From a bacterium (GTDB lineage: Bacteria > Electryoneota > RPQS01 > DYHQ01): a stretch of DNA of 64,000 nucleotides. The notes beneath the pieces were generated by a model. The model had not been told where the DNA came from. It saw only the letters and a list, made by a program, of their open reading frames with translations, and made no database searches. Within the stretch, counting starts at the first letter, position 1. Every line of letters begins with the position of its first letter. The stretch is taken from assembly GCA_030622545.1 (NCBI GenBank), contig JAUXGA010000007.1, positions 1-64,000 on the forward strand, given 5' to 3'. Position numbers and translations under genes: made by a program. Below are positions 12,290 through 51,336 of the stretch, one piece after another.

Positions 12290-12853
12290 TTACTGCGCCC
12301 GTGATATTATCGCGGTCAATTTCTCTTTGTCTAATTCCTCAACTGTAAAAGAATTTATCGGTCGACGGAAAGGCTGCAGCCACGCGCGAACCTGTTCCAA
12401 AAGTTGTTCACGCACGACGAGAATCAGTTTTGCATCGCTTTCCTGCAGCAACTTTTTAACAGCCTCAGCCCAACCTCCGCCAGCAAGCTCCAATGGTCCG
12501 AATTCGTCTATGACGACAACTTCAGCCATCGCAGATTCTCTCAACACTCGGCGGCCTCGCGCAAGCGCGTCATCCGAAAAAATAAAAGGACCAATCTTTT
12601 CGAGACCGGCCCCTCTTTTACGCGCAAGTGTTATTCGCTCGTCTTCTCCGATAATCTGTAAATCATAACCTACAAGTTGTTCTCCCTCGAAAACACGATG
12701 CGCTAAAATCCCGCGTACATCTCTACCGGATTCTCGCCAGTCGCGAACAAGTTTTTTTAATGCTGTCGTCTTCCCAGCACCAACAGCCCCCGTTAATAAA
12801 ATAACCGGAACACTTTCCCCCCGCCTGCGGGGGGACATAGGGGGGTCATTCAC
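12290..12853 (-). CDS. P-loop NTPase of the THEP1/NTPase_1 type
   Basis: A 187-residue protein with Walker A GAVGAGKTT near residue 22 and Walker B VVVIDEFGPLEL, the arrangement of the THEP1-like nucleoside-triphosphatase family; the cellular role of bacterial members is poorly known. The first 14 residues (MNDPPMSPRRRGES) are encoded by a GC-rich palindrome rather than by family sequence. Either the gene gained its start from an inserted repeat or translation begins later, for example at the GTG just before PVILLTG. It is the last gene of the minus-strand amidohydrolase/carbamoyltransferase cluster, 131 nt behind ygeW, and ends 5 nt from the convergent histidine kinase stop. Confidence 0.75.
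   Translation of the reverse strand: MNDPPMSPRRRGESVPVILLTGAVGAGKTTALKKLVRDWRESGRDVRGILAHRVFEGEQLVGYDLQIIGEDERITLARKRGAGLEKIGPFIFSDDALARGRRVLRESAMAEVVVIDEFGPLELAGGGWAEAVKKLLQESDAKLILVVREQLLEQVRAWLQPFRRPINSFTVEELDKEKLTAIISRAQ
12817..12845. repeat. G/C-homopolymer palindrome inside the NTPase 5' end
   Basis: CCCCCCGC-CT-GCGGGGGG followed by ACATA and another six-G run. It is a perfect 8-bp inverted repeat that encodes the arginine-rich N-terminal residues of the NTPase and looks like a mobile short repeat captured by the coding frame. Confidence 0.5.
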
Positions 12854-12868
12854 ATTATTGTCCTATCA

Positions 12869-12970
12869 TCATAGCTCAGGATGTTTTTCCTCGTCCTGCA
12901 AAGCGCGTTGAATTTGCTCGGCTTGGCGATTAGAAATAATCTCGAAATTACCTTCTCCGATTTGATCTAC
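12869..12970 (-). pseudogene. 33-codon open frame between ygeW and the NTPase gene, possibly a gene remnant
   Basis: The minus strand holds a stop-bounded frame of 33 codons, rich in Glu, Gln and Asn and ending EEKHPEL. It has protein-like codon use but no ATG, GTG or TTG at its beginning. It ends 15 nt before the NTPase start and begins 14 nt after the ygeW stop. It could be the tail of a deleted cluster gene or chance. I do not recognise the sequence. Confidence 0.25.
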
Positions 12971-12984
12971 TCATTGGCAGCATC

Positions 12985-13977
12985 TTACATCGTCAGCGCC
13001 ATAATCGCTTTCGCGGTGTGCAGGCGATTCTCCGCTTCCGGATAAACTCTCGACTGTGGTCCGTCAATCACCTCATCCGTTACTTCGCTGCCTCGGTCAG
13101 CGGGCAGGCAGTGCATATAGATGGCTTCCTTTTTTGCCAATGACATCTTCTTCGCGTCACAAATCCATGACTTGTAATTCTTCGCAATCGCAAGCGCTTC
13201 TTCGGGCTTTCCGAATAAATCCAAAATCCCCCAGCTTTTGGGGTAAACGACATCGGCGTTTTCGAAAGCGGCGTCCATCGAATCCACGATATCGAAACGA
13301 CCGCCGTGAGCTTTCGCATTCACTTCCGCCTGCTTAATCATCTCCGGCATCAGCTTGAATTCCGGTGGATGAGCCAGTGTGACTTCCATCCCAAAACGCG
13401 TCATGAGCGAAATCAATCCTTGCGGCACGGAAACCGGTTTCGCATATGACGGCGCGTACGCCCACGAAACCGCGATCTTCCGTCCGCGCAAATCATCGCC
13501 GAATTCTTCGCGCAGCGTCATTAAATCCGCAAACATCTGAAACGGATGATCAATATCGCACTGCATGTTCATCACGGGTACTTCCGCATGCTGGGCTACT
13601 TCGCGCATGTAAGCGTTGCCTTCGCCGGGTACGAGGTCATGGCGAATCGCGATACCGTGCCCGTAAGATGCTAAGATAATCCCCATGTCTTTCGGGCTCT
13701 CGCCGTGCGCGACCTGCGATGTCTCCGCGGAAATGAAATGCGCGTGACCGCCGAGCTGCGTCATACCCGCTTCCATCGAATTGCGCGTCCGCGTGGATTT
13801 GTCGAAGAAAAACAGGAAGAGCGTCTTGTCCGGCAGGTAGCGATGCGGTTTGTTTTCTTTCTTGAGCTTTTTCAGATGAACGGCCGTCTCTATCGCATGG
13901 TTGATTTCTTCGCGACTCCACTCCTGCGTCGTGATGAAATCACGGCCTTTGAGAGAAGACATTTCAGATAAATTCAC
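12985..13977 (-). CDS. ygeW: YgeW-type knotted carbamoyltransferase
   Basis: A 330-residue aspartate/ornithine-transcarbamoylase-fold enzyme. The carbamoyl-phosphate motif STRTRNS is near residue 60 and the catalytic HCLP motif is in YMHCLPADRG. Long stretches match Escherichia coli YgeW in pattern: GNAYMREV, MQCDIDHPFQMFADL, AYAPSYAKPVSVPQG and SLMTRFGMEVTLAHP. YgeW belongs to gene sets linked to anaerobic purine/urate breakdown, where it is thought to act on a carbamoylated intermediate; its exact substrate is not settled. The gene starts 3 nt after the ygeY stop and is clearly co-transcribed with it. Confidence 0.9.
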   Translation of the reverse strand: MNLSEMSSLKGRDFITTQEWSREEINHAIETAVHLKKLKKENKPHRYLPDKTLFLFFFDKSTRTRNSMEAGMTQLGGHAHFISAETSQVAHGESPKDMGIILASYGHGIAIRHDLVPGEGNAYMREVAQHAEVPVMNMQCDIDHPFQMFADLMTLREEFGDDLRGRKIAVSWAYAPSYAKPVSVPQGLISLMTRFGMEVTLAHPPEFKLMPEMIKQAEVNAKAHGGRFDIVDSMDAAFENADVVYPKSWGILDLFGKPEEALAIAKNYKSWICDAKKMSLAKKEAIYMHCLPADRGSEVTDEVIDGPQSRVYPEAENRLHTAKAIMALTM

Positions 13978-13980
13978 GAT

Positions 13981-15192
13981 TTATTCTCCTGACATTGAAA
14001 TATATACCTCGGGATAAACCATATAAAAAGCAATCGCTCGCGGCAGATGCCGGATGGGAAGCTGGTCGGTCGGCGCGTGCGCGTGCGTTTCGCTTGCGGG
14101 GCCGAAACCAATCGATGGAATTCCTAACAAACCTGCTGTAGCAACGCCGTTCGTTGAAAAACCCCAGCGACCGACTCGCACAGGTTCACCGAAGAGCTTT
14201 TCATGCGCAGTGCAACCGGCGCGCACTGCTGGCGAATCTTCGTCCATCACCCACGCAGGAAAATAGCTCTCGGTCGGATACACCGTCCCGCGCCACGTCG
14301 GCTCGCGGTACTCTAACAGACGAACATCCGCTTTGTGCTTTTTTACAGATGGTAATGCTTTAATCTCATTCAGTGCTGTCTCTTTCGTTTCACCTTTGGT
14401 CAGACGCCTATCGAGATGAATCGTACACCCGTCAGCCACTGCGCAAAGCGACGGTGATGTCGAACGAATCTCGCTGATGGTCACTGTGCCTTTGCCCAAA
14501 AACGCATCCGTGGCGAGGCGTTCGTTTAGTTGCGCAATTTCCTGAACGATGGGAGCCATTTTGTATATCGCATTATCGCCTCGTTCAGGCGCGCTGCCAT
14601 GACACGAAACACCGGATGTGCTGACTTCGATTTCCATCCGCCCTCGATGACCGCGATACAATGAAACCTCGGTCGGCTCCGTCAGAACGACAACTTCCGG
14701 TTTAACGACGCCTTCGCGCACAAGATATTGCCAGCATAAACCGTCGCAATCTTCTTCCGAAACCGAACCGACAATCACCACCTGCCAGTCACCTTCGAGC
14801 GCCAACTCTTTGATACCTTTCCCCGCATAGACGAGCGCCGCCATGCCGCCTTTCTGGTCCGACGCACCGCGCCCGTAGAGAATCCCGTTTTCAATGCGCG
14901 CTTCGAAAGGATCGCGTCCTTCCCAGAGTTCCGCCGCGCCGACGTCCACTGTGTCTATATGCGCATCGAACGCAATCACATGGCTGCCTTTTCCGATACG
15001 ACCAATGACATTACCAAAATCGTCTATCTCGACTGAATCAAATTTAGCGGCTTTCATCTCCTCGGCGATGCGTTGAACAACTTTGCCTTCATCTCTCGAA
15101 ATCGAAGGAATCGAAACGATGTCGGCCAGAAATTTCGCGCAGGCGTCTTGCTGGAATTCCGCCCATTTAGTGATGCGCTGATAATCAAACAT
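13981..15192 (-). CDS. ygeY: YgeY-family M20-type metallohydrolase
   Basis: A 403-residue dinuclear-metal amidohydrolase/peptidase of the M20 fold. Metal-binding motifs include AFDAHIDTVDVG and SEEDCDGLCWQYL. Segments such as YRGHRGRMEIEV, VSCHGSAPERGDNAI and GKGTVTISEI follow E. coli YgeY closely. The start is placed at 15192 because that ATG overlaps the upstream stop in ATGTTTGA, giving translational coupling; the longer frame runs into the preceding gene. YgeY members are usually annotated as selenium-metabolism-linked hydrolases and occur in urate-degradation gene sets. Here it sits between the CysK-like enzyme and ygeW. Substrate not determined. Confidence 0.9.
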   Translation of the reverse strand: MFDYQRITKWAEFQQDACAKFLADIVSIPSISRDEGKVVQRIAEEMKAAKFDSVEIDDFGNVIGRIGKGSHVIAFDAHIDTVDVGAAELWEGRDPFEARIENGILYGRGASDQKGGMAALVYAGKGIKELALEGDWQVVIVGSVSEEDCDGLCWQYLVREGVVKPEVVVLTEPTEVSLYRGHRGRMEIEVSTSGVSCHGSAPERGDNAIYKMAPIVQEIAQLNERLATDAFLGKGTVTISEIRSTSPSLCAVADGCTIHLDRRLTKGETKETALNEIKALPSVKKHKADVRLLEYREPTWRGTVYPTESYFPAWVMDEDSPAVRAGCTAHEKLFGEPVRVGRWGFSTNGVATAGLLGIPSIGFGPASETHAHAPTDQLPIRHLPRAIAFYMVYPEVYISMSGE

Positions 15193-16234
15193 CAATAATT
15201 TCCCATCCACTCTGGTACTCATCAAGTTCCGCAATCGTGTAGTCATCCATCGGATGTTCGCGGTCAGGTACTTCAAATTCTTTCTTGGCTCCGCACAGCG
15301 GCGTCGTGAAATAGCGCTGGCCGTTATCGTTTATCATCGTGACGATGCGTTTCATTTCCGGGTGACGCTTCGAAAGTTCGATAGCCGCCAACACATTCGA
15401 ACCGGATGAAATGCCGCAAAATATCGCTTCTTCTCGCGCGAGTTTCTGTGCCATCTTGACGGCATCATCGGTCGTCGTGGTGATAACGCCGGTCAGGATA
15501 CTCACGTCCAAATCTCGCGGCACAAAACCGTCGCCGATGCCTTCGATGCCGTGCGGCCCCCACACGCGGCGAGAAAGCAGCGGGCACTCCGCAGGCTCGA
15601 TGGCGTAAAGTTTGACATCCGGTTCGCGTTCTCGCACATAACGACCGACACCCGTAATCGTGCCGCCGGTTCCTTGAGTCGCGATGAAACATTCGACATG
15701 CCCGTCGCACTGCTCCCAGAGTTCCGGGCCGGTGGTCAGGTAATGTGCCTCGACATTATCGGGATTTGAAAACTGCCCCGGTTCCCAGTATTTGCCCGGT
15801 TCGGTTGCTTTGATTTCCTGCACCTTTTGAAGCGCCAAGTCCACATCCGATTCGCCGCCCGGCGTTTCGACAAGTTTCGCGCCATAGGCGATGTCGGTTT
15901 TCTTGCGTTCTTCACTCATGCCGGTCGGCATCACGATAATACACGGATACCCCATCGCCGCCGCCATGAACGAACAGCTTATCCCCGCGTTGCCGGTCGA
16001 ACATTCGAGTACGGTCATGCCGGGTTTGAGTTCTCCTCGTTCAATCGCTCGCTTGAACATGTTGTAGTAGATACGATCTTTCAAACTGCCCGATGGACTA
16101 AAATAATCGAGCTTACCGAGGATTTCTGCGTTGATTCCTTCTGCTTTGGTAATCTTCGAAAGCCGAAGCAGGGGTGAATATCCAATTGTGTCAAAAATCG
16201 AATTCGTAATTTGCTTGTTTCGTGCCCAGTTCAA
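15185..16234 (-). CDS. Cysteine synthase/CBS-like PLP enzyme (fold type II) in the ygeWY cluster
   Basis: A 349-residue protein of the tryptophan-synthase-beta fold. The PLP lysine is K52 in SPSGSLKDR, the carboxylate loop is STGNAGIS and the phosphate loop is TQGTGGTITGVG. It lacks the CBS pair and haem motif of eukaryotic cystathionine beta-synthase. By sequence alone it would be called cysteine synthase. Its 8-bp overlap with ygeY and position beside ygeW suggest a beta-elimination or beta-replacement step on a diamino acid such as 2,3-diaminopropionate, the job done by YgeX in the E. coli locus. That role is inference. Confidence 0.8.
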   Translation of the reverse strand: MNWARNKQITNSIFDTIGYSPLLRLSKITKAEGINAEILGKLDYFSPSGSLKDRIYYNMFKRAIERGELKPGMTVLECSTGNAGISCSFMAAAMGYPCIIVMPTGMSEERKKTDIAYGAKLVETPGGESDVDLALQKVQEIKATEPGKYWEPGQFSNPDNVEAHYLTTGPELWEQCDGHVECFIATQGTGGTITGVGRYVREREPDVKLYAIEPAECPLLSRRVWGPHGIEGIGDGFVPRDLDVSILTGVITTTTDDAVKMAQKLAREEAIFCGISSGSNVLAAIELSKRHPEMKRIVTMINDNGQRYFTTPLCGAKKEFEVPDREHPMDDYTIAELDEYQSGWEIIDV

Positions 16235-16254
16235 TGAAATACTCCTTATTTTTG

Positions 16255-16286
16255 TCGCCGAGGCAGATCCCCTGATCTGCCCGGAA
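16255..16286. repeat. Interspersed palindromic repeat, family C (copy 1)
   Basis: A 32-mer beginning TCGCCGAGGC and ending CCCGGAA, with internal arms GGCAGATC and GATCTGCC that form a hairpin. It matches 25632-25663 at 25 of 32 positions without gaps. It lies between the two PLP-enzyme genes. Confidence 0.5.
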
Positions 16287-16295
16287 TGTTATTAT

Positions 16296-16325
16296 GACCC
16301 AAGCGCACTGCCGTGCGGCACTACC
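16296..16325. repeat. Interspersed palindromic repeat, family A (copy 2)
   Basis: Begins GACCCAAGCGCACTGCCGTG and is partly self-complementary (GTGCCGCACGGCAGTGC on the other strand). It aligns with 4404-4433. Confidence 0.4.
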
Positions 16326-16342
16326 GGGTGTGGTGAATTCGC

Positions 16343-17584
16343 TTAAAAATCAATAACCTTTTCCACTGCCTCAATTGTCGGTTCTACAGCATCGGGCGCA
16401 AGTGGCGCGGCCGACATCGCACCTTTGACATCTTTCAAGCCGTGTCCGGTGACGAGCACGAGCGCGGATTCTTCTTCACGCACGAGTTCCTTTTGCCGCG
16501 CTTCAATCAGTCCCGCCATAGCCGCCGCGCCTGCCGGTTCCGCAAAGATACCGCTTTTCTGCGCCAATAAAATCATCGCACGGCGAATCGCGTCGTCGGA
16601 AACAGCTATCCAAGCTCCGCCGGTTTCTTTGACAGCGCGCAGAGCTTTCACTTGATCCCGCGGCAGGCCGACGCGAATAGAATCGGCGAATGTTTCGATG
16701 TTTTCCGTCTGTACAGGAAGTGTTCCTTCCCGAGCGTTTACCAGAGGCGCCGCTCCTTGCGCCTGCACACCGATAAGCCGAGGCATTCGCTCAATGAGTC
16801 CGGCGGCTTGAAGGTCGCATAACCCCTTGTGTACAGCGCCTAAAATACATCCATCACCCACAGGCACAAACACAACATCCGGCGCTTCGCCTATCTGATG
16901 AACGGATTCCAAAATGACGGTTTTCTTTCCTTCGGTGAGGAAAGGATTCGTTGCGGTGTTCCGGGAATACCAGCCGTGCTTTTGGCAGACCTTTGCGCAA
17001 AGCTCGAACGCATCGTCGTAGGCGCCTTTGATGCGAATGACTCGCGCGCCATGCAGTAAAAGCTGAGCGAGTTTCGCTTCCGGTGCAGTTTCCGGAACGA
17101 AGAGAACTGTCGGCATCCCGCATGACGCGGCGAGCGTTGCCAGTGACGACGCAGCGTTTCCGGTGGACGCGGCCGCAATGATTTGCGCATTGATGCCAAT
17201 CGCATGAGCAAGAGCAACAATTGACGCGCGATCTTTCAGCGAACCCGATGGATTCAGCCTGTCATCCTTAAGCCAGACGCGACGAACACCGATGTCGCTT
17301 GCTAAAGTATCGGCGGAAATAAGCGGAGTCGCTCCCACACGCAGAAGACGCACGCTTTCGGGCGGCTCGATTGGCAGGAAATCTTTCCAATCCCACAGGT
17401 CTCGATGTAAAATAGTAGCAGGTGGGCGCGGTTTGCTTTTTTGGAAGTCATAGATAAAATCGATCGTACCCAGCAGCGAACCGCAATCCGGACACGTGAA
17501 AGGAATGTCATTCGGCATCCATTCGCGCCGGCAACTGACACAGCGCGCACCTTGAAAGCGCGGATTAAACAGAGCGGCGGACAT
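16343..17584 (-). CDS. Threonine synthase-like PLP enzyme with N-terminal zinc ribbon
   Basis: A 413-residue fold-type II PLP protein. A CxxC...CxxC zinc ribbon (Cys15, 18, 31, 34) precedes the catalytic domain; the PLP lysine is K117 in NPSGSLKDR, followed by the loop STGNAASS. This architecture is that of archaeal-type threonine synthases, and the enzyme could make threonine from O-phosphohomoserine. However, no other threonine-pathway gene is near, and its first 20 nt overlap the end of the SsnA-like amidohydrolase gene. A catabolic ammonia-lyase role in the cluster is an alternative. The specificity cannot be decided from sequence. Confidence 0.78.
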   Translation of the reverse strand: MSAALFNPRFQGARCVSCRREWMPNDIPFTCPDCGSLLGTIDFIYDFQKSKPRPPATILHRDLWDWKDFLPIEPPESVRLLRVGATPLISADTLASDIGVRRVWLKDDRLNPSGSLKDRASIVALAHAIGINAQIIAAASTGNAASSLATLAASCGMPTVLFVPETAPEAKLAQLLLHGARVIRIKGAYDDAFELCAKVCQKHGWYSRNTATNPFLTEGKKTVILESVHQIGEAPDVVFVPVGDGCILGAVHKGLCDLQAAGLIERMPRLIGVQAQGAAPLVNAREGTLPVQTENIETFADSIRVGLPRDQVKALRAVKETGGAWIAVSDDAIRRAMILLAQKSGIFAEPAGAAAMAGLIEARQKELVREEESALVLVTGHGLKDVKGAMSAAPLAPDAVEPTIEAVEKVIDF

Positions 17585-18908
17585 GAAAACCTCGCAGTGA
17601 ACGTTGTTGCCATACCTTTTGAAAAACCTGCCGCGCTTCCTCCGTTAAGCTCCCCGGATGAAACCCGACCGGCGCTCCATCGCGAAGCCGAATCTGTCCG
17701 TTCACGATGACGTCTCGCGCGGGAACGTTTCCGAAACCGAAAAGATAATGTCCGAAGTAATTCGATTTATTGAGCAGAGACGGAGGATGATAGGGAAAGA
17801 CAGCGATGTCAGCCGCAGCTCCCGGCGCGATAATTCCCAGCGTTTTTTTCAAATGCCGCCCGGCGATGTCAGGATTATTCACAAAAAGAATCCTGCTCAG
17901 AAGTTCCCATCCAAAACTCGGGTCGCGGGCGCTTGTCGAAAAAGCGCCAAGCGCTGTTTGCGCTTCCGCGGCCAGACTGGCTCCGAAACCGTCATTACCC
18001 AGCGCCAAACGAACTCCCGCCGCTTCGAGGGCTTTTATGTTCGGCAGGCCGACAGCGTTGTTCAAATTGGAGCGCGGATTGATTGCCAACGTAGCTCCCG
18101 ATTCAGCAAGCATTTCAATTTCCGCTGCGCGCAAGTCAATCCCGTGAACGAAAATGGATTTTTCATTCAACAAACCAAAGCGGCGGTAGCGGCGCACAGG
18201 TGATTTTCCCGAAAGCTGCCGGTCGGTTTTCTCTTCGCAGAGATGAACATGCACTCCCACATCGAGCTCTTCGGCGAAATTGGCAACTCGACTTAACGTC
18301 CGGTCTGACAGCGTGAACGAAGCGTGCAAACCGATGAACGGCGCTAAATCAAAGCGCTGAGCTGTCTCTCGAATGAAATGTCGATTCTCGTCGATTGCTG
18401 ATTGTGCAGTTTTCACGCCGCATCGGTCGGAGATTTCGAAACAGGTGGAACCGCGTAGTCCGACATCATTGAAAGCGGAAGCAATCTCATTCAAGCTTCC
18501 GTGGGTAGCACCATAGCTTGCGTGGTGGTCAAAGGCGCAGGTGATGCCCGTGCGCAACAATTCCCACAGATAGAGCTGAGCGGAAAGTCTGACAGCTTGG
18601 AGTGTCAAAGCTCGGTCGAGCGGCCACCATACACGGCGCAATACGTCGAGAAAAGTTCGCGGCAGCGCGCCCAAAGGCGGCATCCCTCGCGCAGGGTACC
18701 CGTAAAAATGTGTATGCAGCAGCACTTGTCCGGGAAAGACGACGCAACCGGACGCATCGATGATTTCCGCGCTGTCTGAGAGCATTTCTCCGTTGTCGGC
18801 TTCCACCCGCGCAATCTTGTCGCCTTCGACAAGCACGCGCCCCGGCGAGAAAATTTGTGGCTTCTTGCCGGGAGAAATTACAAGTCCGTTTCGAATCCAA
18901 ATTGCCAT
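17565..18908 (-). CDS. ssnA: SsnA-like metal-dependent amidohydrolase (guanine deaminase/chlorohydrolase superfamily)
   Basis: A 447-residue TIM-barrel amidohydrolase. The ATG at 18908 (MAIWIRNGLVISPG) is chosen because the promoter and spacer lie just upstream and the longer frame has no family match. Metal motifs are HTHFYG near residue 66, a His in VHVHLCEE, VHGIDL and the Asp of LGNDGFG. Family-specific stretches are WWPLDRAL, CAFDHHAS, and GLRGSTCFEISDR, as in E. coli SsnA (CFETTDR, DHHAS). SsnA proteins occur in gene sets for anaerobic purine use, where hydrolytic deamination or ring opening is suspected. First gene of a five- or six-gene minus-strand operon. Confidence 0.85.
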   Translation of the reverse strand: MAIWIRNGLVISPGKKPQIFSPGRVLVEGDKIARVEADNGEMLSDSAEIIDASGCVVFPGQVLLHTHFYGYPARGMPPLGALPRTFLDVLRRVWWPLDRALTLQAVRLSAQLYLWELLRTGITCAFDHHASYGATHGSLNEIASAFNDVGLRGSTCFEISDRCGVKTAQSAIDENRHFIRETAQRFDLAPFIGLHASFTLSDRTLSRVANFAEELDVGVHVHLCEEKTDRQLSGKSPVRRYRRFGLLNEKSIFVHGIDLRAAEIEMLAESGATLAINPRSNLNNAVGLPNIKALEAAGVRLALGNDGFGASLAAEAQTALGAFSTSARDPSFGWELLSRILFVNNPDIAGRHLKKTLGIIAPGAAADIAVFPYHPPSLLNKSNYFGHYLFGFGNVPARDVIVNGQIRLRDGAPVGFHPGSLTEEARQVFQKVWQQRSLRGFHVRRSV

Positions 18909-18936
18909 GATGCTATCTAATAAAAAGTATCTTTTA

Positions 18937-18965
18937 ATAATACCAAAAAAATCTCTATTTTTCAA
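18937..18965 (-). promoter_or_regulatory. Sigma70-type promoter of the ssnA-ygeW cluster
   Basis: TTGAAA, 17 nt, TATTAT on the minus strand, placed between the ftsK terminator and the ssnA-like ATG. The leader is about 20 nt. No operator-like dyad is obvious. Confidence 0.7.
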
Positions 18966-18972
18966 GAGAAAA

Positions 18973-18992
18973 AAGGCGGCTCGTGCCGCCTT
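18973..18992 (-). terminator. Rho-independent terminator after ftsK
   Basis: A perfect 8-bp stem AAGGCGGC/GCCGCCTT with a 4-nt loop, followed on the minus strand by TTTTCTCTT. It separates the envelope operon from the amidohydrolase operon. Confidence 0.9.
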
Positions 18993-19024
18993 CACAACAA
19001 AAAAAACGGTCAGGTGGGTTATTT

Positions 19025-43251: not shown

Positions 43252-44841
43252 TCAGCTGTTCAGGATTTCCTCAACCTCCGCTTTGTCAACATCCATAATA
43301 TATGGTATTCCACTAACCTCGGCCGCTTCATGAGTCAGAGCCGCAATATCGTTCCTTTCAATATGTTCAAGCGAGAATTTGCGGCTTCCATTCATAAGTT
43401 GTCTTAGGCCTTGTGCAAGTCGCTCGTAGTAGGTGTAAAGCCCAATTGCGCCTGTGGGCAAGTGCTCAAACTCATTTTCCCCAATTTCCCTTCGAAGTTC
43501 GCCCGCAGTAACGAAAATTTCGTCTTTTGAATTACCAAACCGTTCGATGTAAACCGGAATCTGACCTTCCTCAATCGCGCGCCCGATTGTTTTGCCGACC
43601 ATCGCGGCCGCAATCGGACTCCGAGCCATTCCAATCAATTTAACAAATGGCGCGCCCAATGCCAAGCCCTTGAATATCTGGTCTTCGAAAGTGAATCCAC
43701 CAGCGAGGACTAACGCGGGAACCTTCATTCCATTATCCGCAAGGCGTTTAGCATACTTGTAAAGCAGTGAATGCAACTCCACTCCTGGAACCCCCCATTC
43801 ATTCATCATCCGCCAAGGGCTCATACCAGTCCCTCCGCCGGCACCGTCAACAGTTAAAAGGTCAATGCCATACTTGCAAGCGAAGAGAACTGCTCGGGCA
43901 AGGTCCGCCGGTCTGTAAGCTCCGGTCTTCAGGAAGATATATTTCGCGCCAGCTTTACGTAACTCCTCAACACGCTTAGCAAAACTTTCCTCGGTCACCA
44001 TTCCGACTCGGGAATGCCGTTCAAACTCTTTGAACGAACCACGCTCAAAGGCTTTTATCACGGCGGGGTCTGTCGGGTTCGGGAGGACAACGTAGCCGCG
44101 TTCGTAAAGCATCTGGGCTTTTTCAAGGCTCTTGACTTTCACCTCGCCGCCAATATCTTTTGCGCCCTGCCCCCATTTAAGCTCTACGATTTCAACGCCC
44201 AATTTCTCAATGGCATATTCCTGAGTGCCCAGGCGTGTATCCTCGATGTTTGCCTGCACGATGATAGCGCCGTAACCATCACGTTGATAATCTTGAAAGA
44301 GTTTCACTCGGCGCTTAAGGTCAACCGTGTCAAGTACACGACCGTTCTTGATGACCGACTCCGGGTCCATACCGACAACATTCTCGCCAATGGTTAGTCC
44401 TGTACCGGCAAGCGCCGACCCAATTGCCAACCCTTCCCAGTTGTTCTTGGCAATGTCCGTCGAACCAATGCCGGGGATAATCCAGGGATAGCGGAATTTG
44501 AGACCGCCGTCATGACCGAAACGAACCTCGAGGTTAACATTGGGAAAGATAGCTTTATCACTATCCGCCTCAATGCCGTGAGCACCGACAGCAGTACCCA
44601 TAATATTGAAGTGCGAGTAATCGATAGGGTAATCTTTTTCGCTTGCCGTAGTAATAACTCCAAACGGCTGAGGGTAGATTACCTCATGCCCTCTATAGGC
44701 AGATTTGCCGATTTCACACATCCCAATGCAGCCATCGACACAGGTAACACACATCCCTGAAATTGGAGTTATGGAATCATCTGTCCTGTTTTTCGTCAAA
44801 GTAGCTGCAGAACGATTTACCGCCGAGAAGGTTGGCGACAT
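43252..44841 (-). CDS. GltB-like FMN/Fe-S glutamate synthase domain protein
   Basis: A 529-residue protein matching the central FMN-binding domain of glutamate synthase large chain, without the glutamine amidotransferase domain. FMN-domain features are WGQGAKDIGGEVK, LLTVDGAGGGTGMSPW and VLAGGFTFEDQIFKGLALGA. The N-terminus has a CxxCxxxCxxxC cluster (MCVTCVDGCIGMCEIG), likely an extra Fe-S site. It would reduce 2-oxoglutarate plus ammonia to glutamate using electrons from the neighbouring subunits; an ammonia source other than glutamine is implied by the missing amidase part. AGGAGG lies 8 nt before the ATG. Last gene of the redox cluster. Confidence 0.82.
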   Translation of the reverse strand: MSPTFSAVNRSAATLTKNRTDDSITPISGMCVTCVDGCIGMCEIGKSAYRGHEVIYPQPFGVITTASEKDYPIDYSHFNIMGTAVGAHGIEADSDKAIFPNVNLEVRFGHDGGLKFRYPWIIPGIGSTDIAKNNWEGLAIGSALAGTGLTIGENVVGMDPESVIKNGRVLDTVDLKRRVKLFQDYQRDGYGAIIVQANIEDTRLGTQEYAIEKLGVEIVELKWGQGAKDIGGEVKVKSLEKAQMLYERGYVVLPNPTDPAVIKAFERGSFKEFERHSRVGMVTEESFAKRVEELRKAGAKYIFLKTGAYRPADLARAVLFACKYGIDLLTVDGAGGGTGMSPWRMMNEWGVPGVELHSLLYKYAKRLADNGMKVPALVLAGGFTFEDQIFKGLALGAPFVKLIGMARSPIAAAMVGKTIGRAIEEGQIPVYIERFGNSKDEIFVTAGELRREIGENEFEHLPTGAIGLYTYYERLAQGLRQLMNGSRKFSLEHIERNDIAALTHEAAEVSGIPYIMDVDKAEVEEILNS

Positions 44842-44861
44842 TGTTGGACCTCCTTAAACCT

Positions 44862-45554
44862 CTATTTTTCCGAATTTTTCTTTCCGGTAATTTCACATGC
44901 TACACAGGGGTCCATGTAGCACATCATGTCATCGAACTCTTCTTTTTCGACGCATGGCGGACTCAAGTTTGCACACGCACCACAAATCGCTTTGTCGGGT
45001 TCGTTGTATGTGCATCGTAGCTGACAGGCCGGACAAACGTAGATGCAACCGCCACACAAACGGCACTGTTCCGATTTGATATCGAATGGTGTGCCAATGC
45101 TGCGGTTCTGTCCACGATTGCGGAATCCGATGGCTTTCGCCATCATCTGTTCCTCGCACATCCTCACACAAAGCCCGCACAGGATGCAGTCCTCATATTC
45201 TTGCCGAAATCGTTGCTGCCGCACGTCGTGGGCTGCCGCAAGGTCTTGAATGGTCTTCGACTGCGGACATGAGGCCAGATGAAGTTCAAGAATCATCTTG
45301 CGCGCTCGAACAACGCGCGAGGACGCCGTGCGCACCTGCAGGCCTTCCTCGGCCAGATAAGTGCAGGATGTGACCAACTTTGCTTTTGAACCTTCTCCAA
45401 TCTCGACCACACAGAGACGACAGGCACCATAGGGTGACAGTCCCTCCATATAGCATAAAGTCGGAATGGGGAATCCCAGGAATTTCGCAGCTTCGAGGAG
45501 TGTTGTCCCTTCCTCGACCATAACCGGAAGACCATTAATCTTCAAATTAATCAT
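44862..45554 (-). CDS. HoxU/NuoG-N-terminal-like iron-sulfur subunit
   Basis: A 230-residue electron-transfer protein. It has a plant-type [2Fe-2S] domain (Cys34, 45, 48, 64), the His/Cys domain of complex I-type subunits (LELHLASCPQ), and two CxxCxxC clusters (CILCGLCVRMC and CRLCGGCIYVC). A Cys-rich C-terminus (CGACA...CYMDPCVAC) could bind another cluster. It would wire electrons from the NuoF module to the glutamate synthase subunit. The ATG overlaps the stop of the NuoF-GltD gene (ATGA). Confidence 0.85.
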   Translation of the reverse strand: MINLKINGLPVMVEEGTTLLEAAKFLGFPIPTLCYMEGLSPYGACRLCVVEIGEGSKAKLVTSCTYLAEEGLQVRTASSRVVRARKMILELHLASCPQSKTIQDLAAAHDVRQQRFRQEYEDCILCGLCVRMCEEQMMAKAIGFRNRGQNRSIGTPFDIKSEQCRLCGGCIYVCPACQLRCTYNEPDKAICGACANLSPPCVEKEEFDDMMCYMDPCVACEITGKKNSEK

Positions 45555-48500
45555 GTTGAGTGTTCCACTGTTGAAGCAGTCTCGTTCTCCTGCTCCGTTA
45601 ACTCTTTCTCTTTCGGTTGAGTGAATTCAAGATCACACCGCAGGCATCTCATTGCTTCACATTTTGCGTCGTCTTCAGGAAGAGCCATCTCCACCTCGAC
45701 GAAACTGCTTGTTCGCTGTTCGATGGGTATATGAGGCGGTTCCGCGCGTCGCAATTGGCTCAACTCTTCCTCGCTTATTTCAAGAGGTTCCACATAATTC
45801 TGTGGCACCTTGGCTCGCTCAGGCTGTCGAAGTTCCTCGCCACGGATGTACCGGTCAATCATCACAGCTGCTTTCTTCCCAGCAGCAATAGCATCCACGA
45901 CTGTATTCGGCCCTGTGACGACATCACCACCGGCGAATACACCGGGACGGCTGCAACTGAGGTGATATTTATCCGCATATAGCGTTCCGTCATCCTCAAT
46001 CTTCAGCTCTGGCTCTCCGGATGGAGAAATAGAATCCACATCCGGTTGCTCACTAATGGCAACAACTAATGTGTCAAGTGGCAGGATGAATTCACTGTTG
46101 GGAATGGGAACTGGTTTTCGGCGACCGCTGTAGTCAATTTCACCCAGTTTGTTGCGAATACATTCAATACCTGTTAAACGGCCTTTATCTGTTAGAATCC
46201 GAATCGGCATCACAAGGGTTTCGAACTTAATCGCTTCTTCGCCTGCCGCATCGATTTCCTCAGAAAAGGCGGGCATTTCTTCACGCGTGCGGCGGTATAG
46301 AAGGGTCACGCTCTGGACATCTTTCTGACGCAGCGCGGTCCGTGCCGCGTCAACGGCTGAATTACCCCCTCCAACCACACCTACCCGACCTTTTGCCAGT
46401 TGTTCGCCGTTGATGTTGTAGGCCTTTAGGAACTCAATCGAGGGGAAAACACCTTCACTCTCTTCCCCTTCAAGACGGAGTCGGCGACCTTTCTGTGCTC
46501 CCACGGCTACGAAGACAGCTTTGAAACCATCTGCGAAGAGCTTTTCAATGGTAACATCTTTCCCCAATTCGTGGTTGCACTTCAGGGTCACGTTCTCATC
46601 GAGAATGGCGTCTATCTCCTTGGTCAATACCTCGCGAGGCAGCCGATAAGCCGGAATGCAACTGAACATCATACCACCGGGCTTGGAATCAGCCTCGAAG
46701 ATAGTAACTTGATACCCCAGTAGCGAGAGATAGTGAGATGCCGTTAATCCAGCTGGGCCTGCTCCGATGACAGCAACTTTGTCCGTCTTTTTCTCCAACG
46801 CTTTCGTCGGCTGGTAAATCGATGGGTCAATTTTGTCGGTGATAAAGCGTTTCAAAGCCCGGATAGCCACAGGACGGGTGCCGGTTTGTCCCAATCGGCA
46901 TCTCTCCTCGCACTTGTGGTCACAAACTCTGGCGCAAATGGAAGGAAATGGGTTCGCCTCACGGATAGCCTTATAGGCATCCTCGTATTCACCCCGCGCG
47001 ATATGAGCGACATAGCGCCATGCTTCCGTGCCAATCGGGCATGTGGATTGACAGGGCGCACCTACTAAATCTTTGCACACACCCGCCCTGCAGCGACCGT
47101 CCACGATATGCTCGATGTACTCTTCGCGGAAGTAGCGCAAGGTTGACAAGACAGGATTGGAAGCGGTCTGTCCTAAACCGCACATCGTCGTATCAGCGAC
47201 CACATGTGCAAGTTCTTCAAGTAAATCAAGTTGTTCTAATGTGCCACGCCCTTCGGATATGTCCTCCAGAATCTCATACATGCGCTGCGTGCCTTTGCGG
47301 CAGGTATAGCACTTGCCGCAGGATTCGTCACGCAGGAAATTCATATAGTATTTAGCGATATCGACCATACAGCTCTCTTCGTCCATCACGATCATGCCGC
47401 CCGATCCCATGATCGAGCCGGCTTCGGCCAAGCTGTCATAATCGATGGACAAGTCGAACTTCTCGGCAGGAATGCAGCCACCCGACGGGCCACCAGTTTG
47501 TACGGCCTTGATAGGGACTTTGCCGATAGAACCACCGCCAATGTCGTAGATGATTTCCCGGATGGTGGTGCCCATTGGAACCTCTACCAAACCCGTATTT
47601 TTAATCTTACCTACCAGGCTGAATATCTTTGTACCGCTGTTGCCGGGAACCCCTACCTTAGCATACTCATCAGCCCCTTTGCTAATGATTACGGGTATGT
47701 TGGATAGGGTTTCAACATTGTTAATGCAGGTTGGACGTCCCCACAAACCCTTTTGAACCGGATAAGGAGGTCTTTGTCTCGGCTCACCCATATGACCTTC
47801 AATGGAGCGGATGAGTGCGGTTTCCTCGCCACATACAAACGCTCCGGCGCCGCGGACAATTTCTATATCGAAATCCAGTCCGGTATTGAGGATGTTTTTC
47901 CCCATAAGACCGAGTTCACGAGCCTGGCGGATAGCAATCAGAGCGTGCTTAATTGCTAACGGATATTCACTGCGCACATAGATGAATCCCTTGGTCGCAC
48001 TGATAGCTATGGCCGCTATGAGCATACCTTCCAGAACGGCATGGGGGTTCCCCTCCAACAGACTCCTGTCCATATAAGCGCCGGGGTCGCCCTCGTCGGC
48101 ATTGCAGACGATGTATTTCTGTCCTGAACCATTTCCTGCAGCCTGGGCGGACTCCCATTTGACGCCAGTTGGGAAACCTGCACCCCCACGCCCTCTCAGA
48201 CCGGACTGCTTGACCTCTTCGACTATCCATTCAGGGTTGATATTCAGCAAAACCTTCCCTAAGGCGTGGTATCCTCCACGCCGGGTATAATCGAAAATCC
48301 TTATTGGGTCTATCTGCTCATTCTTTCCAAGAATCGTCCGTGTCTGTTTTTTGAAAAACGGGATGTCATCCTGACAGTGTTGGCATTCGTGATATTCTGA
48401 TTCTCGGTATAATAGCTCTTCGACGACCTGACCCTTCAGTGCAGATTCGATAATGCGGGGAACATCATCCATGCTAAGCCTGGGATATAAATGTTTTCCG

Positions 48501-48745
48501 GGCTCGACCAATATGAAGGGGTCTTGTTCGCAAAAACCTTGACATCCGGTTACTCGCAGCGAAACTTGCTCGTGAAGATTATGCTCCAGCGAATATCTCT
48601 TTATAATTCTTAGGATGTCGTTCGCGCCGCTGGCCTGACCACCGGTTCCGGCACAAACAACGAGACATGGTCTATCTGGCTCAGGTTCTTCAACGATTTG
48701 TCGGCGAAAACTCAAGAACTCTTCGACCGTTGCCAGTCGATACAT
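45551..48745 (-). CDS. NuoF-GltD fusion: NADH-binding FMN subunit joined to an NfnB/GltD-type FAD oxidoreductase
   Basis: A 1064-residue fusion. Residues 1-105 are a thioredoxin-like Fe-S domain. Residues ~135-540 are NuoF: the FMN/NADH motifs GLRGRGGAGFPTG and CNADEGDPGAYMDR, an SLBB part, and the N3-type [4Fe-4S] ligands CGKCYTC...TMCGLG. Residues ~550-1000 are a glutamate-synthase-small-chain-like oxidoreductase with CQSTCPIG...CDHKCEERC, FAD motif VIGAGPAGLTASHYLSLLGY and NAD(P) motif GVVGGGNSAVDAA. In domain 1 the usual CxGTGC reads CAGTGG (Cys31, Gly36), losing one ligand unless nearby Cys27 substitutes. It probably links NADH and NAD(P)H pools to glutamate synthesis. GAGGAG precedes the ATG. 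Confidence 0.9.
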   Translation of the reverse strand: MYRLATVEEFLSFRRQIVEEPEPDRPCLVVCAGTGGQASGANDILRIIKRYSLEHNLHEQVSLRVTGCQGFCEQDPFILVEPGKHLYPRLSMDDVPRIIESALKGQVVEELLYRESEYHECQHCQDDIPFFKKQTRTILGKNEQIDPIRIFDYTRRGGYHALGKVLLNINPEWIVEEVKQSGLRGRGGAGFPTGVKWESAQAAGNGSGQKYIVCNADEGDPGAYMDRSLLEGNPHAVLEGMLIAAIAISATKGFIYVRSEYPLAIKHALIAIRQARELGLMGKNILNTGLDFDIEIVRGAGAFVCGEETALIRSIEGHMGEPRQRPPYPVQKGLWGRPTCINNVETLSNIPVIISKGADEYAKVGVPGNSGTKIFSLVGKIKNTGLVEVPMGTTIREIIYDIGGGSIGKVPIKAVQTGGPSGGCIPAEKFDLSIDYDSLAEAGSIMGSGGMIVMDEESCMVDIAKYYMNFLRDESCGKCYTCRKGTQRMYEILEDISEGRGTLEQLDLLEELAHVVADTTMCGLGQTASNPVLSTLRYFREEYIEHIVDGRCRAGVCKDLVGAPCQSTCPIGTEAWRYVAHIARGEYEDAYKAIREANPFPSICARVCDHKCEERCRLGQTGTRPVAIRALKRFITDKIDPSIYQPTKALEKKTDKVAVIGAGPAGLTASHYLSLLGYQVTIFEADSKPGGMMFSCIPAYRLPREVLTKEIDAILDENVTLKCNHELGKDVTIEKLFADGFKAVFVAVGAQKGRRLRLEGEESEGVFPSIEFLKAYNINGEQLAKGRVGVVGGGNSAVDAARTALRQKDVQSVTLLYRRTREEMPAFSEEIDAAGEEAIKFETLVMPIRILTDKGRLTGIECIRNKLGEIDYSGRRKPVPIPNSEFILPLDTLVVAISEQPDVDSISPSGEPELKIEDDGTLYADKYHLSCSRPGVFAGGDVVTGPNTVVDAIAAGKKAAVMIDRYIRGEELRQPERAKVPQNYVEPLEISEEELSQLRRAEPPHIPIEQRTSSFVEVEMALPEDDAKCEAMRCLRCDLEFTQPKEKELTEQENETASTVEHST

Positions 48746-48793
48746 ATGCTACTCCTCGATCTCGTTTATTGGATAGAATTTGCTAAACTTAGA

Positions 48794-49630
48794 TTAACCT
48801 ACATCAAGTATATGACCTTTGCAACCGCGGCGTGGACAAATCTGAACAGTACCTCCGCCGCGCAGAATTAAAGGTACCATTTGAGCTCCACACTCCGGAC
48901 AGTCTGACCCGCCGATGAGTTCCGTATGGCAGTGCGGACAGAACAAGTGGAGCACTGTGTCATACGGGGTCTTGTATTCCTCTTCGATGTTATAGCTGCC
49001 ATAGAGACTGGATAATCTTAGCCATCCATGTTGTTGACCGAACGATTGAGTAATCTTGACTGATGGAAAACCATCAATGGGATGCTCGGGATCCATCAGA
49101 CTGTGGTTGCAGCGTGAACAACTTACTTCAACAGGGAAAATCCTTCGGTCAGTCTTTATTTCTATCTTGTCAAGACCCTCGCGGGTTTTCTCGATTATTT
49201 CTCGAACCTTGGACGCATTAACATGTGAAAAGTAGTGGCCGTCCACGACAACTACAGGGCCAAGAGCGCAAGCTCCAAGGCAGTTAACCGTCTCTAAGGT
49301 GAACTTCCTATCGGGAGTTGTCTCCCCAGGTTTTACATCAAGTTGTCTTTCAAATTCAGCGGCAACTCGAGGCGCTCCGCGCACGTGGCAGGCCGTTCCC
49401 ACACAGACGGAGACGAGATGTTCGCCTCGCGGTGTTAGACTGAATGCCCTGTAAAAGGTGGCAACGCCATAGATATCGACCAATGGACGCTTTGTCGTTT
49501 CTGCGACAATTGTTAAGGCGTCAGCAGGAAGGTATCCAAATTTTGCTTGTACCTCTTCCAGGATCGAGATAAGTCCCCCTTGATCATCGAGATGCCGCTC
49601 CACAATGGCAGGGATTTCATCTGTTGTCAT
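48794..49630 (-). CDS. NuoE-like [2Fe-2S] subunit with a C-terminal double zinc-ribbon extension
   Basis: A 278-residue protein. Residues 1-150 are NuoE/HydC-like with all four [2Fe-2S] ligands (Cys76, Cys81, Cys117, Cys121). The remaining ~130 residues are unusual: a CxxC...(CSRCNHSL) segment and a zinc-ribbon (CPHCHTEL...CPECGAQM) plus a terminal CPRRGCKGH. NuoE proteins normally end near residue 165. It starts the NADH-handling operon; GGTGA lies before its ATG and the next gene begins 48 nt later. Confidence 0.85.
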   Translation of the reverse strand: MTTDEIPAIVERHLDDQGGLISILEEVQAKFGYLPADALTIVAETTKRPLVDIYGVATFYRAFSLTPRGEHLVSVCVGTACHVRGAPRVAAEFERQLDVKPGETTPDRKFTLETVNCLGACALGPVVVVDGHYFSHVNASKVREIIEKTREGLDKIEIKTDRRIFPVEVSCSRCNHSLMDPEHPIDGFPSVKITQSFGQQHGWLRLSSLYGSYNIEEEYKTPYDTVLHLFCPHCHTELIGGSDCPECGAQMVPLILRGGGTVQICPRRGCKGHILDVG

Positions 49631-49995
49631 AGGTTCACCATATTGGGTAGAATCGTTTATAATGATTGTGTTTCACTTGGTAATCGTGACCATCCGGCGA
49701 GTAATGAGTATGGATAACCCGAACGCAATTCTGGTTGCAAAGTCGAGGACGATTTCTTTCTCATTAGGAAATTTATAAGAATTCTCCTCAAAAGCAAGTG
49801 AAATCCTTTGCGAATGAAGGAAGGAATGAATGGATTTGAAACCACTACTTTCTTAATGTTTCAAAAACAGGAAGTAGTTCAGAAAGAATACCCCGCTTCT
49901 TCTTTCACATCCCTTTTATCCCTCCGCCTTGGACTGTGCCCATACGACAGTGGTGATACCTACCAAATCCCTTACCTGTTTGGGCAGATGTTATC
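49631..49995. other. Intergenic region between NuoE-like and gdhA genes
   Basis: 365 nt with no supported gene. A long-loop inverted repeat ACTACTT...AAGTAGT (49844-49878) could end gdhA transcription. A convincing promoter for the NuoE-like gene was not found; the best -10-like string is TATAAA about 30 nt before its ATG. Confidence 0.4.
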
Positions 49996-51336
49996 TCACG
50001 CGTAGAGGCCTCGAAGCTCCGAGGCATGGCAAACGCGCTGTATTGAAAAGATGAAAGCAGCGGTGCGCATTGGGACTTTATTATGTAACGATGTCTCCAA
50101 AACATTCTGGAAGGCATTGTCCATGATTCTTTTCAAATCTTCTTGGATTCGCTCTTCAGACCAGTAATATCCCATACGGTTCTGAACCCACTCAAGATAA
50201 GATACAGTCACGCCTCCTGCATTACAGAGGATGTCAGGGATAATGAAGGTTTTCTTCTTCTCAAGAATGTCATCTGCTTCAGGCGTTAAGGGGCCATTGG
50301 CGCACTCTGCGATGATTTTGGCCTGCACACGAGGGGCATTTGCTTCTGTAACTTGGTTTTCCAAGGCGGCGGGGATCAACAGATCTACGGGAAGCTCCAG
50401 CAGTTTCATTGGGTCGCGCATCTTTTCGACCTTGGCGACTTTCTCAAAATCCTTCAGAGTCCCATTTTCCTTCACATGCGCAATGGCCATCTCAGGATCA
50501 ATTCCCTGTTCGCTAAAGAAAGCTCCATCAATATCAGAAATCGCCTGAATGGTGCAGCCGTCCTGATGCAGCAGCTTCGCCGCGTAGGAACCGGCGTTGC
50601 CGAACCCTTGTACGGCTACGGTAAGTTTAGAAAGATCCATGCCCAAATGCTCAACCGTACGATGCACACAATACACCATTCCCTGTGCAGTCGCTGCGGC
50701 TCTACCGGCTGATCCTCCCAACTCGATGGGTTTGCCTGTTACAACAGCAGGTAAGAACTCTTGGTGGTGCATGGAATAGGTGTCCATGAACCACGCCATA
50801 ATCTGGGGATTGGTATTGACATCCGGAGCAGGAATATCCTTGTCTGGGCCAAACAGGTCAATCATTTCGGCGAAATAGCGACGCGCCAGTCGCTCGAGTT
50901 CTCCTTGGCTCAGCTTCCGGGGATCAACGACTACCCCCCCTTTGCCGCCTCCCATAGGAATACCCACTACCGCACACTTATAGGTCATCCAAAAAGCCAG
51001 AGCCTTGACCTCCTCAACATCCACATCCGGGTGAAAACGAACTCCTCCTTTAGCAGGACCAAGGGCGACATTATGCTGCACGCGATAACCCGTAAAAACC
51101 TCTATGGAGCCATCGTCCATACGGACAGGAAGTTTAACCTCTGTAACCCTCCGCGGTTCTTTAATCACAGCCACTTGATTGGGTGCGAGTTTTAGGAGTT
51201 TGGCCGCCCGGTCAAATTGCTTCAGCGCATTGTCAAAGGCCGATGGATGGTCGGTCAGGTGTGTTTCTTTGAGGATTTTGTCATATTGCTCCTCGTTTTT
51301 CGCTTCCAACTCCCGAAGGGTTTGCCCTGTCGCCAT
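49996..51336 (-). CDS. gdhA: Glutamate dehydrogenase
   Basis: A 446-residue NAD(P)-dependent glutamate dehydrogenase that interconverts glutamate with 2-oxoglutarate and ammonia. The catalytic region is GPAKGGVRFHP...PMGGGKGG (second Lys catalytic) and the Rossmann loop is VQGFGNAGSYAAK. Length matches the hexameric ~450-residue class. AAAGGAAAG lies before its ATG. It lies directly upstream of the glutamate synthase/NuoEF cluster on the same strand, although a 365-nt gap may give it separate transcription. Together they would set the balance between ammonia assimilation and glutamate catabolism. Confidence 0.95.
   Translation of the reverse strand: MATGQTLRELEAKNEEQYDKILKETHLTDHPSAFDNALKQFDRAAKLLKLAPNQVAVIKEPRRVTEVKLPVRMDDGSIEVFTGYRVQHNVALGPAKGGVRFHPDVDVEEVKALAFWMTYKCAVVGIPMGGGKGGVVVDPRKLSQGELERLARRYFAEMIDLFGPDKDIPAPDVNTNPQIMAWFMDTYSMHHQEFLPAVVTGKPIELGGSAGRAAATAQGMVYCVHRTVEHLGMDLSKLTVAVQGFGNAGSYAAKLLHQDGCTIQAISDIDGAFFSEQGIDPEMAIAHVKENGTLKDFEKVAKVEKMRDPMKLLELPVDLLIPAALENQVTEANAPRVQAKIIAECANGPLTPEADDILEKKKTFIIPDILCNAGGVTVSYLEWVQNRMGYYWSEERIQEDLKRIMDNAFQNVLETSLHNKVPMRTAAFIFSIQRVCHASELRGLYA

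Follow-up and report, generated by a model that had tools for sequence, protein, structure and literature searches.

A candidate reductive urate degradation operon of an Electryoneota bacterium with a ThrC-like and a CysK-like enzyme in the place of YgeX

The six-gene cluster at 12290-18965

In this study we analysed a gene cluster at 12290-18965 on the minus strand of a 64,000-nucleotide stretch of DNA from an Electryoneota bacterium (positions 1-64000 of contig C7, GenBank JAUXGA010000007.1; hereafter the window). The cluster encodes an SsnA-like amidohydrolase, two enzymes dependent on pyridoxal 5'-phosphate (PLP), one ThrC-like and one CysK-like, the hydrolase YgeY, a short YgeW-type carbamoyltransferase and a P-loop nucleoside triphosphatase (NTPase). 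All six genes were found to be real. The reductive degradation of urate, in which SsnA, YgeW and YgeY take part, is relevant to gout and to nitrogen cycling; E. coli and clostridia are the bacteria in which it was elucidated, as recently as 2025. With modest confidence we favour the view that the cluster is the lower half of such a reductive (anaerobic) urate or purine degradation pathway, that the upper half lies on other contigs, and that the ThrC-like enzyme, with the CysK-like enzyme as partner, replaces the diaminopropionate ammonia-lyase YgeX. The features of the cluster are as follows.

18972-18993: terminator-like hairpin after ftsK, directly before the promoter-like site
18937..18965, minus strand: sigma-70-like promoter site, TTGAAA-17-TATTAT with an extended -10 TG, 10/12 matches in a consensus scan, upstream of the SsnA ATG (18908)
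17565..18908, minus strand: SsnA-like amidohydrolase (PF01979), ATG at 18908, longest open reading frame to 18995
16343..17584, minus strand: ThrC-like fold-type-II PLP enzyme (TIGR00260 thrC)
15185..16234, minus strand: CysK-like fold-type-II PLP enzyme, TTG start behind AAGGAG
13981..15192, minus strand: YgeY, M20-family hydrolase (NF009555, TIGR03526), ATG at 15192
12985..13977, minus strand: short YgeW-type carbamoyltransferase, third OTCace protein of the genome
12290..12853, minus strand: P-loop NTPase (NTPase_1/THEP1-like; PF03266, 86 bits) at the 3' end of the operon

The gene set was present as described in the initial annotation, and so were the two overlaps reported for the PLP genes. 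The ThrC-like gene overlaps the SsnA-like gene by 20 nucleotides (17565-17584) and the CysK-like gene overlaps ygeY by 8 nucleotides, given a YgeY start at the ATG at 15192. A gap of 108 nucleotides separates the ThrC-like from the CysK-like gene. Because the terminator-like hairpin is followed by the promoter-like site and then by the SsnA ATG, the six genes look like one operon with its start at the promoter-like site. The NTPase was also found at the same position in a genome of the same family (G001), with 61% identity, and its membership of the pathway is at best faintly suggested.

YgeY scored far above the curated cut-offs (NF009555, 543.9 vs 321 bits; TIGR03526, 529.7 vs 321.5 bits). 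For the amidohydrolase SsnA was the best NCBIfam family, yet the scores stayed below the cut-offs (PRK07203, 380 vs 444 bits; TIGR03314, 349 vs 455.5 bits). The carbamoyltransferase, a short form, matched YgeW best and was well below the curated cut-off (267 vs 453). It retains the YgeW motifs QCDIDHP, SWAYAPSYAKP.SVPQG, YPKSWG and HCLPAD together, which are substrate-side motifs and are not found together in the other two OTCace proteins of the genome, ArgF (above cut-off) and a PyrB-like protein. Homologues of the short form, 71-73% identical, adjoin YgeY in other phyla. The three genes that mark reductive urate clusters thus stand side by side, with YgeY as the only one above its cut-off.

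Genes for the remaining steps elsewhere in the genome

The pathway of E. coli and C. difficile starts with the reduction of urate to 2,8-dioxopurine, after which the ring is reduced and then opened by SsnA and HyuA. YgeW/UacY and YgeY strip the two ureido groups, and YgeX cleaves the resulting diaminopropionate to pyruvate and ammonia (PMC12507026; PMC12990295). Xanthine dehydrogenase (XDH), hydantoinase and carbamate kinase had been noted as missing; this was correct for the window, but not for the genome (2.66 Mb, 96% complete), which carries them on other contigs. Two XDH-type molybdenum subunits were found on contig C2, a trio of XDH iron-sulfur subunit, PreT and PreA on C20, a D-hydantoinase on C13 (581.7 bits vs a cut-off of 393), and a carbamate kinase on C11 (NF009007, 353.8 vs 266; TIGR00746, 357.9 vs 358.25, just under). 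The genome as a whole therefore holds a molybdenum hydroxylase with a YgfK/UacX-type reductase, as well as a hydantoinase with a carbamate kinase, and an incomplete pathway was rejected.

The trio on C20 has the same gene order as an uricolytic operon of Ignavibacteria (L099). Its PreA was closest to copies inside such operons (L099 and L123, 58-59% identity, vs 38% for E. coli PreA), its XDH iron-sulfur subunit was closest to the L099 copy (58%), and one molybdenum subunit on C2 shared 57% identity with its counterpart in the L123 operon. As the genes for xdh, the PreT/PreA trio, hydantoinase and carbamate kinase lie on other contigs, we concluded that the predicted reductive urate pathway is present but dispersed.

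YgeX, which the initial annotation had reported as absent, was found neither in the window nor in the rest of the 96%-complete genome, as judged from a census of PF00291 in which all five proteins were accounted for.

Two observations were made around the carbamate kinase on C11. A 448-amino-acid GTPase-like protein is encoded directly upstream of it (C11:70385-71728, corresponding to L020:10385-11728), and sucD-, sucC- and ferredoxin-oxidoreductase-like genes lie nearby.

Ancestry and distribution of the ThrC-like and CysK-like enzymes

The five PF00291 proteins of the genome are a CysK (C4), a threonine-dehydratase-like protein (C12), TrpB (C15) and the ThrC-like and CysK-like enzymes of the window. 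The initial annotation had considered that the latter two might be the only threonine and cysteine synthases of the genome, with ordinary activity. This was not the case, since the CysK on C4 is a separate protein above the curated cut-off (425 vs 351), and homoserine dehydrogenase was absent from the window's genome (G000) and six relatives (G001, G007, G011, G017, G019 and G034). For homoserine kinase no match above cut-off was obtained in the same genomes. The same searches in control genomes gave homoserine dehydrogenase in 14/14 and homoserine kinase above cut-off in 11/14. In two of the relatives (G017 and G019) the whole genome encodes just two PF00291 proteins, both in the uricolytic cluster.

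The ThrC-like protein scored above the TIGR00260 thrC cut-off (188.9 vs 167.1 bits), while the residues conserved in threonine synthases and the supply of substrate by homoserine dehydrogenase and kinase are missing. On the YgeX model NF006058 it reached 70 against a cut-off of 276 and is thus not a YgeX. The CysK-like protein stayed under the TIGR01139 cysK cut-off (320 vs 351) and has STGNA in place of the TSGNT loop. The ThrC-like protein cannot be an ordinary threonine synthase, given that the genome lacks homoserine dehydrogenase and kinase. We concluded that the two PLP enzymes are not the ordinary synthases of this genome, and that the ThrC-like protein very probably works in the urate pathway and not in threonine synthesis.

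In a tree of 120 PLP-enzyme sequences, made by a quick method and with some long branches, the ThrC-like proteins formed one clade (43 rows, support 97) separate from YgeX. The clade stands beside, and not within, the ordinary threonine synthases, which included those of known structure in the PDB and those of genomes with homoserine dehydrogenase. Three genomes (G049, G050 and G055) hold both an ordinary ThrC and a ThrC-like protein. Compared with ordinary ThrC, all of the 43 ThrC-like proteins have KDRG changed to KDRA, STGNT to S[T/S]GNA, NSVNPxRxEGQK to xxxxPxxxEGKK, VGNAGN to xGDGxx and ATAI to AD[S/T]I. The Asn, Ser and Arg of the lost NSVNPxR motif are presumably ligands of the substrate phosphate in Thermus ThrC. 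The window protein also has a four-cysteine, zinc-ribbon-like segment at its N-terminus (C15, C18, C31 and C34). Its AlphaFold2 model had a predicted local distance difference test score (pLDDT) of 89.5, and a fold search with this model returned threonine synthases first, followed by cysteate synthase, threonine deaminases and serine racemases, a result that leaves the function undecided.

Two further observations concern this clade. In G001 the catalytic lysine codon of the ThrC-like gene (L038:10399-11778, minus strand) is ATA (Ile), in SLIDRAS, and the YgeY gene of this draft genome contains an internal TGA; together these may reflect sequencing error or gene decay. In a comparison that covered L043, L049, L065 and L077, the NCBIfam model NF006050 (PRK08197, 'threonine synthase', cut-off 303) gave scores of 247-324 for the uricolytic ThrC-like proteins and 200, below the cut-off, for an ordinary ThrC (L077). 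Apparently this model describes the uricolytic clade, and its name may be wrong.

A second CysK-like enzyme, here called P484, occurs in uricolytic loci (484 amino acids in relatives from the phylum, 450-515 across loci). The CysK-like protein of the window was rejected as a member of this family, since the tree placed it with CysK and cystathionine beta-synthase (CBS; support 94) and not with P484. Both proteins nevertheless have in common an STGN loop and an IEGIGD motif, against TSGN and IQGIGAG in CysK. Because they share these motifs on separate branches, the two lineages seem to have been shaped for a single role, and by this comparison the CysK-like protein of the window is a candidate independent recruit in the slot of P484. 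Single-sequence structure prediction gave no usable model for it (pLDDT 35).

In a sample of 39 genomes from the phylum, profiles of the ThrC-like clade and of YgeY matched the identical 9 genomes and no others. Under the assumption of independent genomes, which holds only in part, the probability of such a co-distribution by chance is 4.7e-9. In G034, which belongs to the nine, there is also a weaker second ThrC-like match outside the clade. Five relatives have contiguous clusters of xdh subunits, a YgfK-/UacX-like reductase, ssnA, ygeY, the ThrC-like gene, a long ygeW and P484, again with no YgeX. P484 was present in 6 of the 9 genomes and nowhere else in the phylum. It was absent from the fragmented G009; the window's genome and the sister genome G001 likewise lack it and have the CysK-like gene instead.

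The variant is widespread and not peculiar to the window. We compared 80 named loci selected by likeness to the window's YgeY, 55 of which have another uricolytic marker. Among these 55, the ThrC-like gene was found in 33, P484 in 40, both in 31 and YgeX in 8. The association of the ThrC-like gene with P484 was strong (p = 2e-5). Long and short forms of YgeW occurred in 17 and 31 loci and never shared one (0/48, p = 5e-9). The hosts belong to Bacillota, Mycoplasmatota, Thermodesulfobacteriota, Synergistota, Pseudomonadota, Acidobacteriota, Ignavibacteriota, Calditrichota, Deferribacterota, Bdellovibrionota and others, and the ThrC-like/P484 arrangement adjoins the urate pathway in about ten bacterial phyla. 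In two Halanaerobiales loci a helix-turn-helix/cupin gene of 183-185 amino acids, a likely regulator, was seen beside the ThrC-like/P484 pair (L147:9356-9904 and L165:7832-8386).

Proposed pathway and comparison with known systems

We infer the catalytic roles in the following scheme from sequence and gene context. The molybdenum hydroxylase (C2/C20) would dehydroxylate urate and the PreT/PreA-type flavo-iron-sulfur enzyme (C20) would reduce the ring. SsnA from the window and the hydantoinase from C13 would open the rings to give 2,3-diureidopropionate. The YgeW-type enzyme of the window and the carbamate kinase (C11) could then take off one ureido group, conserving it as ATP, and YgeY the other, yielding 2,3-diaminopropionate. 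Because YgeY and the YgeW-type enzyme are kept, diaminopropionate is probably still an intermediate. The ThrC-like enzyme would perform the last step of YgeX, in which ammonia is eliminated from 2,3-diaminopropionate and pyruvate is formed, and we lean narrowly towards its being a diaminopropionate lyase.

In E. coli YgeX, Asp120 precedes the GN of the loop (TDGN), a residue which we take to serve the D-isomer, and the ThrC-like enzymes have Thr or Ser at this place. YgeX accepts both isomers of diaminopropionate (PMC12507026), and the stereochemistry of the last intermediates has been described as an open question (PMC12990295). Because YgeX takes both isomers and the ThrC-like enzymes have Thr or Ser at the place of Asp120, we propose a division of labour, in which the ThrC-like enzyme may act as lyase on the L-isomer while the D-isomer may be handled by the CysK-like enzyme or P484 as racemase or lyase. 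Such a split would explain why two enzymes replace one. The role of the CysK-like protein as racemase or isomer-specific partner is a tentative suggestion.

Several observations weigh against this scheme. Since the 80 loci were selected by the window's YgeY, the proportions found there differ from those of all uricolytic bacteria. The avoidance of YgeX by the ThrC-like gene was weak (p = 0.05), suggestive but not proven, and a simple replacement of YgeX is not universal, since two loci (L168 and L175) have YgeX in addition to the ThrC-like gene and P484. P484 also stands alongside YgeX in Clostridium (L126, L129 and L150), an arrangement that the racemase idea does not call for, and this argues for a further or different role of P484. 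Finally, the PreA on C20 scored above the NCBI cut-off for dihydropyrimidine dehydrogenase (427 vs 335), and C13, the contig of the hydantoinase, bears the following cluster.

C13:7363-15055 (L019:4363-12055): reductive pyrimidine-degradation-like cluster with a deaminase, an aldehyde dehydrogenase, a beta-ureidopropionase-like amidase, the hydantoinase and an aminotransferase

For these two reasons PreT/PreA and the hydantoinase may work in pyrimidine breakdown, either in addition to the urate pathway or in its place. The cluster on C13 was seen to have no local reductase (PydA/PreA); the copy on C20 may serve it.

A variant with a different amino-acid intermediate had been suggested at the outset, and a different amino acid at the end of the pathway was also considered. 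On diaminopropionate or albizziin, the CysK-like enzyme would swap the beta-amino or ureido group for sulfide, water or acetate, so that cysteine, serine or O-acetylserine results, and this product would then be deaminated by the ThrC-like enzyme. The CysK/CBS family is built for beta-replacement, two PLP enzymes are present where one suffices, both CysK-like lineages have the same altered loop and GIGD motif, and P484 can coexist with YgeX. However, YgeY, which makes diaminopropionate in the characterised pathway (PMC12507026), is kept, and the loci show no recurrent additional gene that would fit another product; we regard this ending as rather unlikely. A related reading is unlikely too, namely a widespread second form of anaerobic urate degradation that makes no pyruvate by a single diaminopropionate lyase; here the CysK-like enzyme would first exchange the side-chain nitrogen of the diaminopropionate/albizziin intermediate (for example for sulfide, giving cysteine), the ThrC-like enzyme would act on the product and purine breakdown would feed amino-acid synthesis.

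Degradation by this cluster of a ureido or cyclic-amide compound other than urate, with the ThrC-like protein as a general serine/threonine-type ammonia-lyase for nitrogen scavenging, would agree with the SsnA and YgeW scores below the curated cut-offs, with the split of the genes over contigs and with the pyrimidine-degradation-like genes, but relatives hold the same genes inside contiguous xdh-ygfK-ssnA-hyuA clusters, and it seems quite improbable. Ordinary threonine and cysteine synthases that sit in the cluster by chance were rejected as very improbable: the TIGR00260 score and the fold matches headed by threonine synthases speak for them, but the missing homoserine dehydrogenase and kinase, the separate CysK, the residue losses, the separate clade beside coexisting ordinary ThrC, and the exact co-distribution with YgeY speak against.

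Replacement of YgeX by the ThrC-like and CysK-like enzymes in a variant of the urate cluster, as first proposed, is thus supported, and neither is a housekeeping synthase of the genome. The findings point to an ending of the pathway with two PLP enzymes, labelled in databases as threonine synthase and cysteine synthase, in many bacteria that carry the gene set. If this is true, numerous ThrC annotations are incorrect, and two enzymes give access to the stereochemistry of the final intermediates. Genome surveys based on YgeX, or on PF00291 in its stead, would miss or mislabel these bacteria. A published survey marks YgeX by PF00291 (PMC12507026), and because this domain also covers the ThrC-like and CysK-like proteins, the variant would be counted there as YgeX.

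Apart from the urate genes, the window contains a set at 43252-51336 (minus strand) that encodes a NuoE-like protein, a 1064-amino-acid NuoF/GltD-type fusion, a 230-amino-acid hydrogenase/HoxU-like ferredoxin subunit and a 529-amino-acid protein for which NCBIfam gave no match at E 1e-30; an archaeal-type glutamate dehydrogenase comes next. The set may encode a glutamate synthase-like complex that is electron-bifurcating or NADH-linked.

A literature search, with most subscription papers including the companion study of Clostridium sporogenes out of reach, gave no description of a ThrC-like/CysK-like variant, and the ending with two PLP enzymes seems not to have been described before as a pathway variant. 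The reductive uric acid cluster of E. coli and C. difficile comprises xdhD/ygfM, ygfK or uacX, ssnA, hyuA, ygeW/yqeA or uacY, ygeY and ygeX (PMC12507026). The genome of the window shares with it SsnA, a YgeW-type enzyme, YgeY, xdh, a PreT/PreA-type reductase, hydantoinase and carbamate kinase. It differs in that the upper-pathway genes are dispersed over four other contigs, and the window has no YgeX, a ThrC-like and CysK-like pair and a short YgeW. This short form lies below the curated YgeW cut-off, unlike the knotted carbamoyltransferase YgeW. Like YgeX, the ThrC-like protein is a fold-type-II PLP enzyme with the same proposed place in the pathway, but it belongs to another clade, has STGN instead of TDGN (Asp120) and carries the four-cysteine N-terminus. 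With ThrC (PDB 2d1f, 2zsj, 1uim and 6cgq) it shares the fold, at 31-37% identity in the fold match, but conserved residues are swapped, with KDRG changed to KDRA, NSVNPxR to xxxNPxx, VGNAGN to VGDGxx and ATAI to ADSI, and the substrate supply is missing. The CysK-like protein has the ancestry of CysK and CBS, but differs from them by the changes of TSGNT to STGNA and of IQGIGAG to IEGIGDG and by its score below the CysK cut-off, in a genome that has another CysK.

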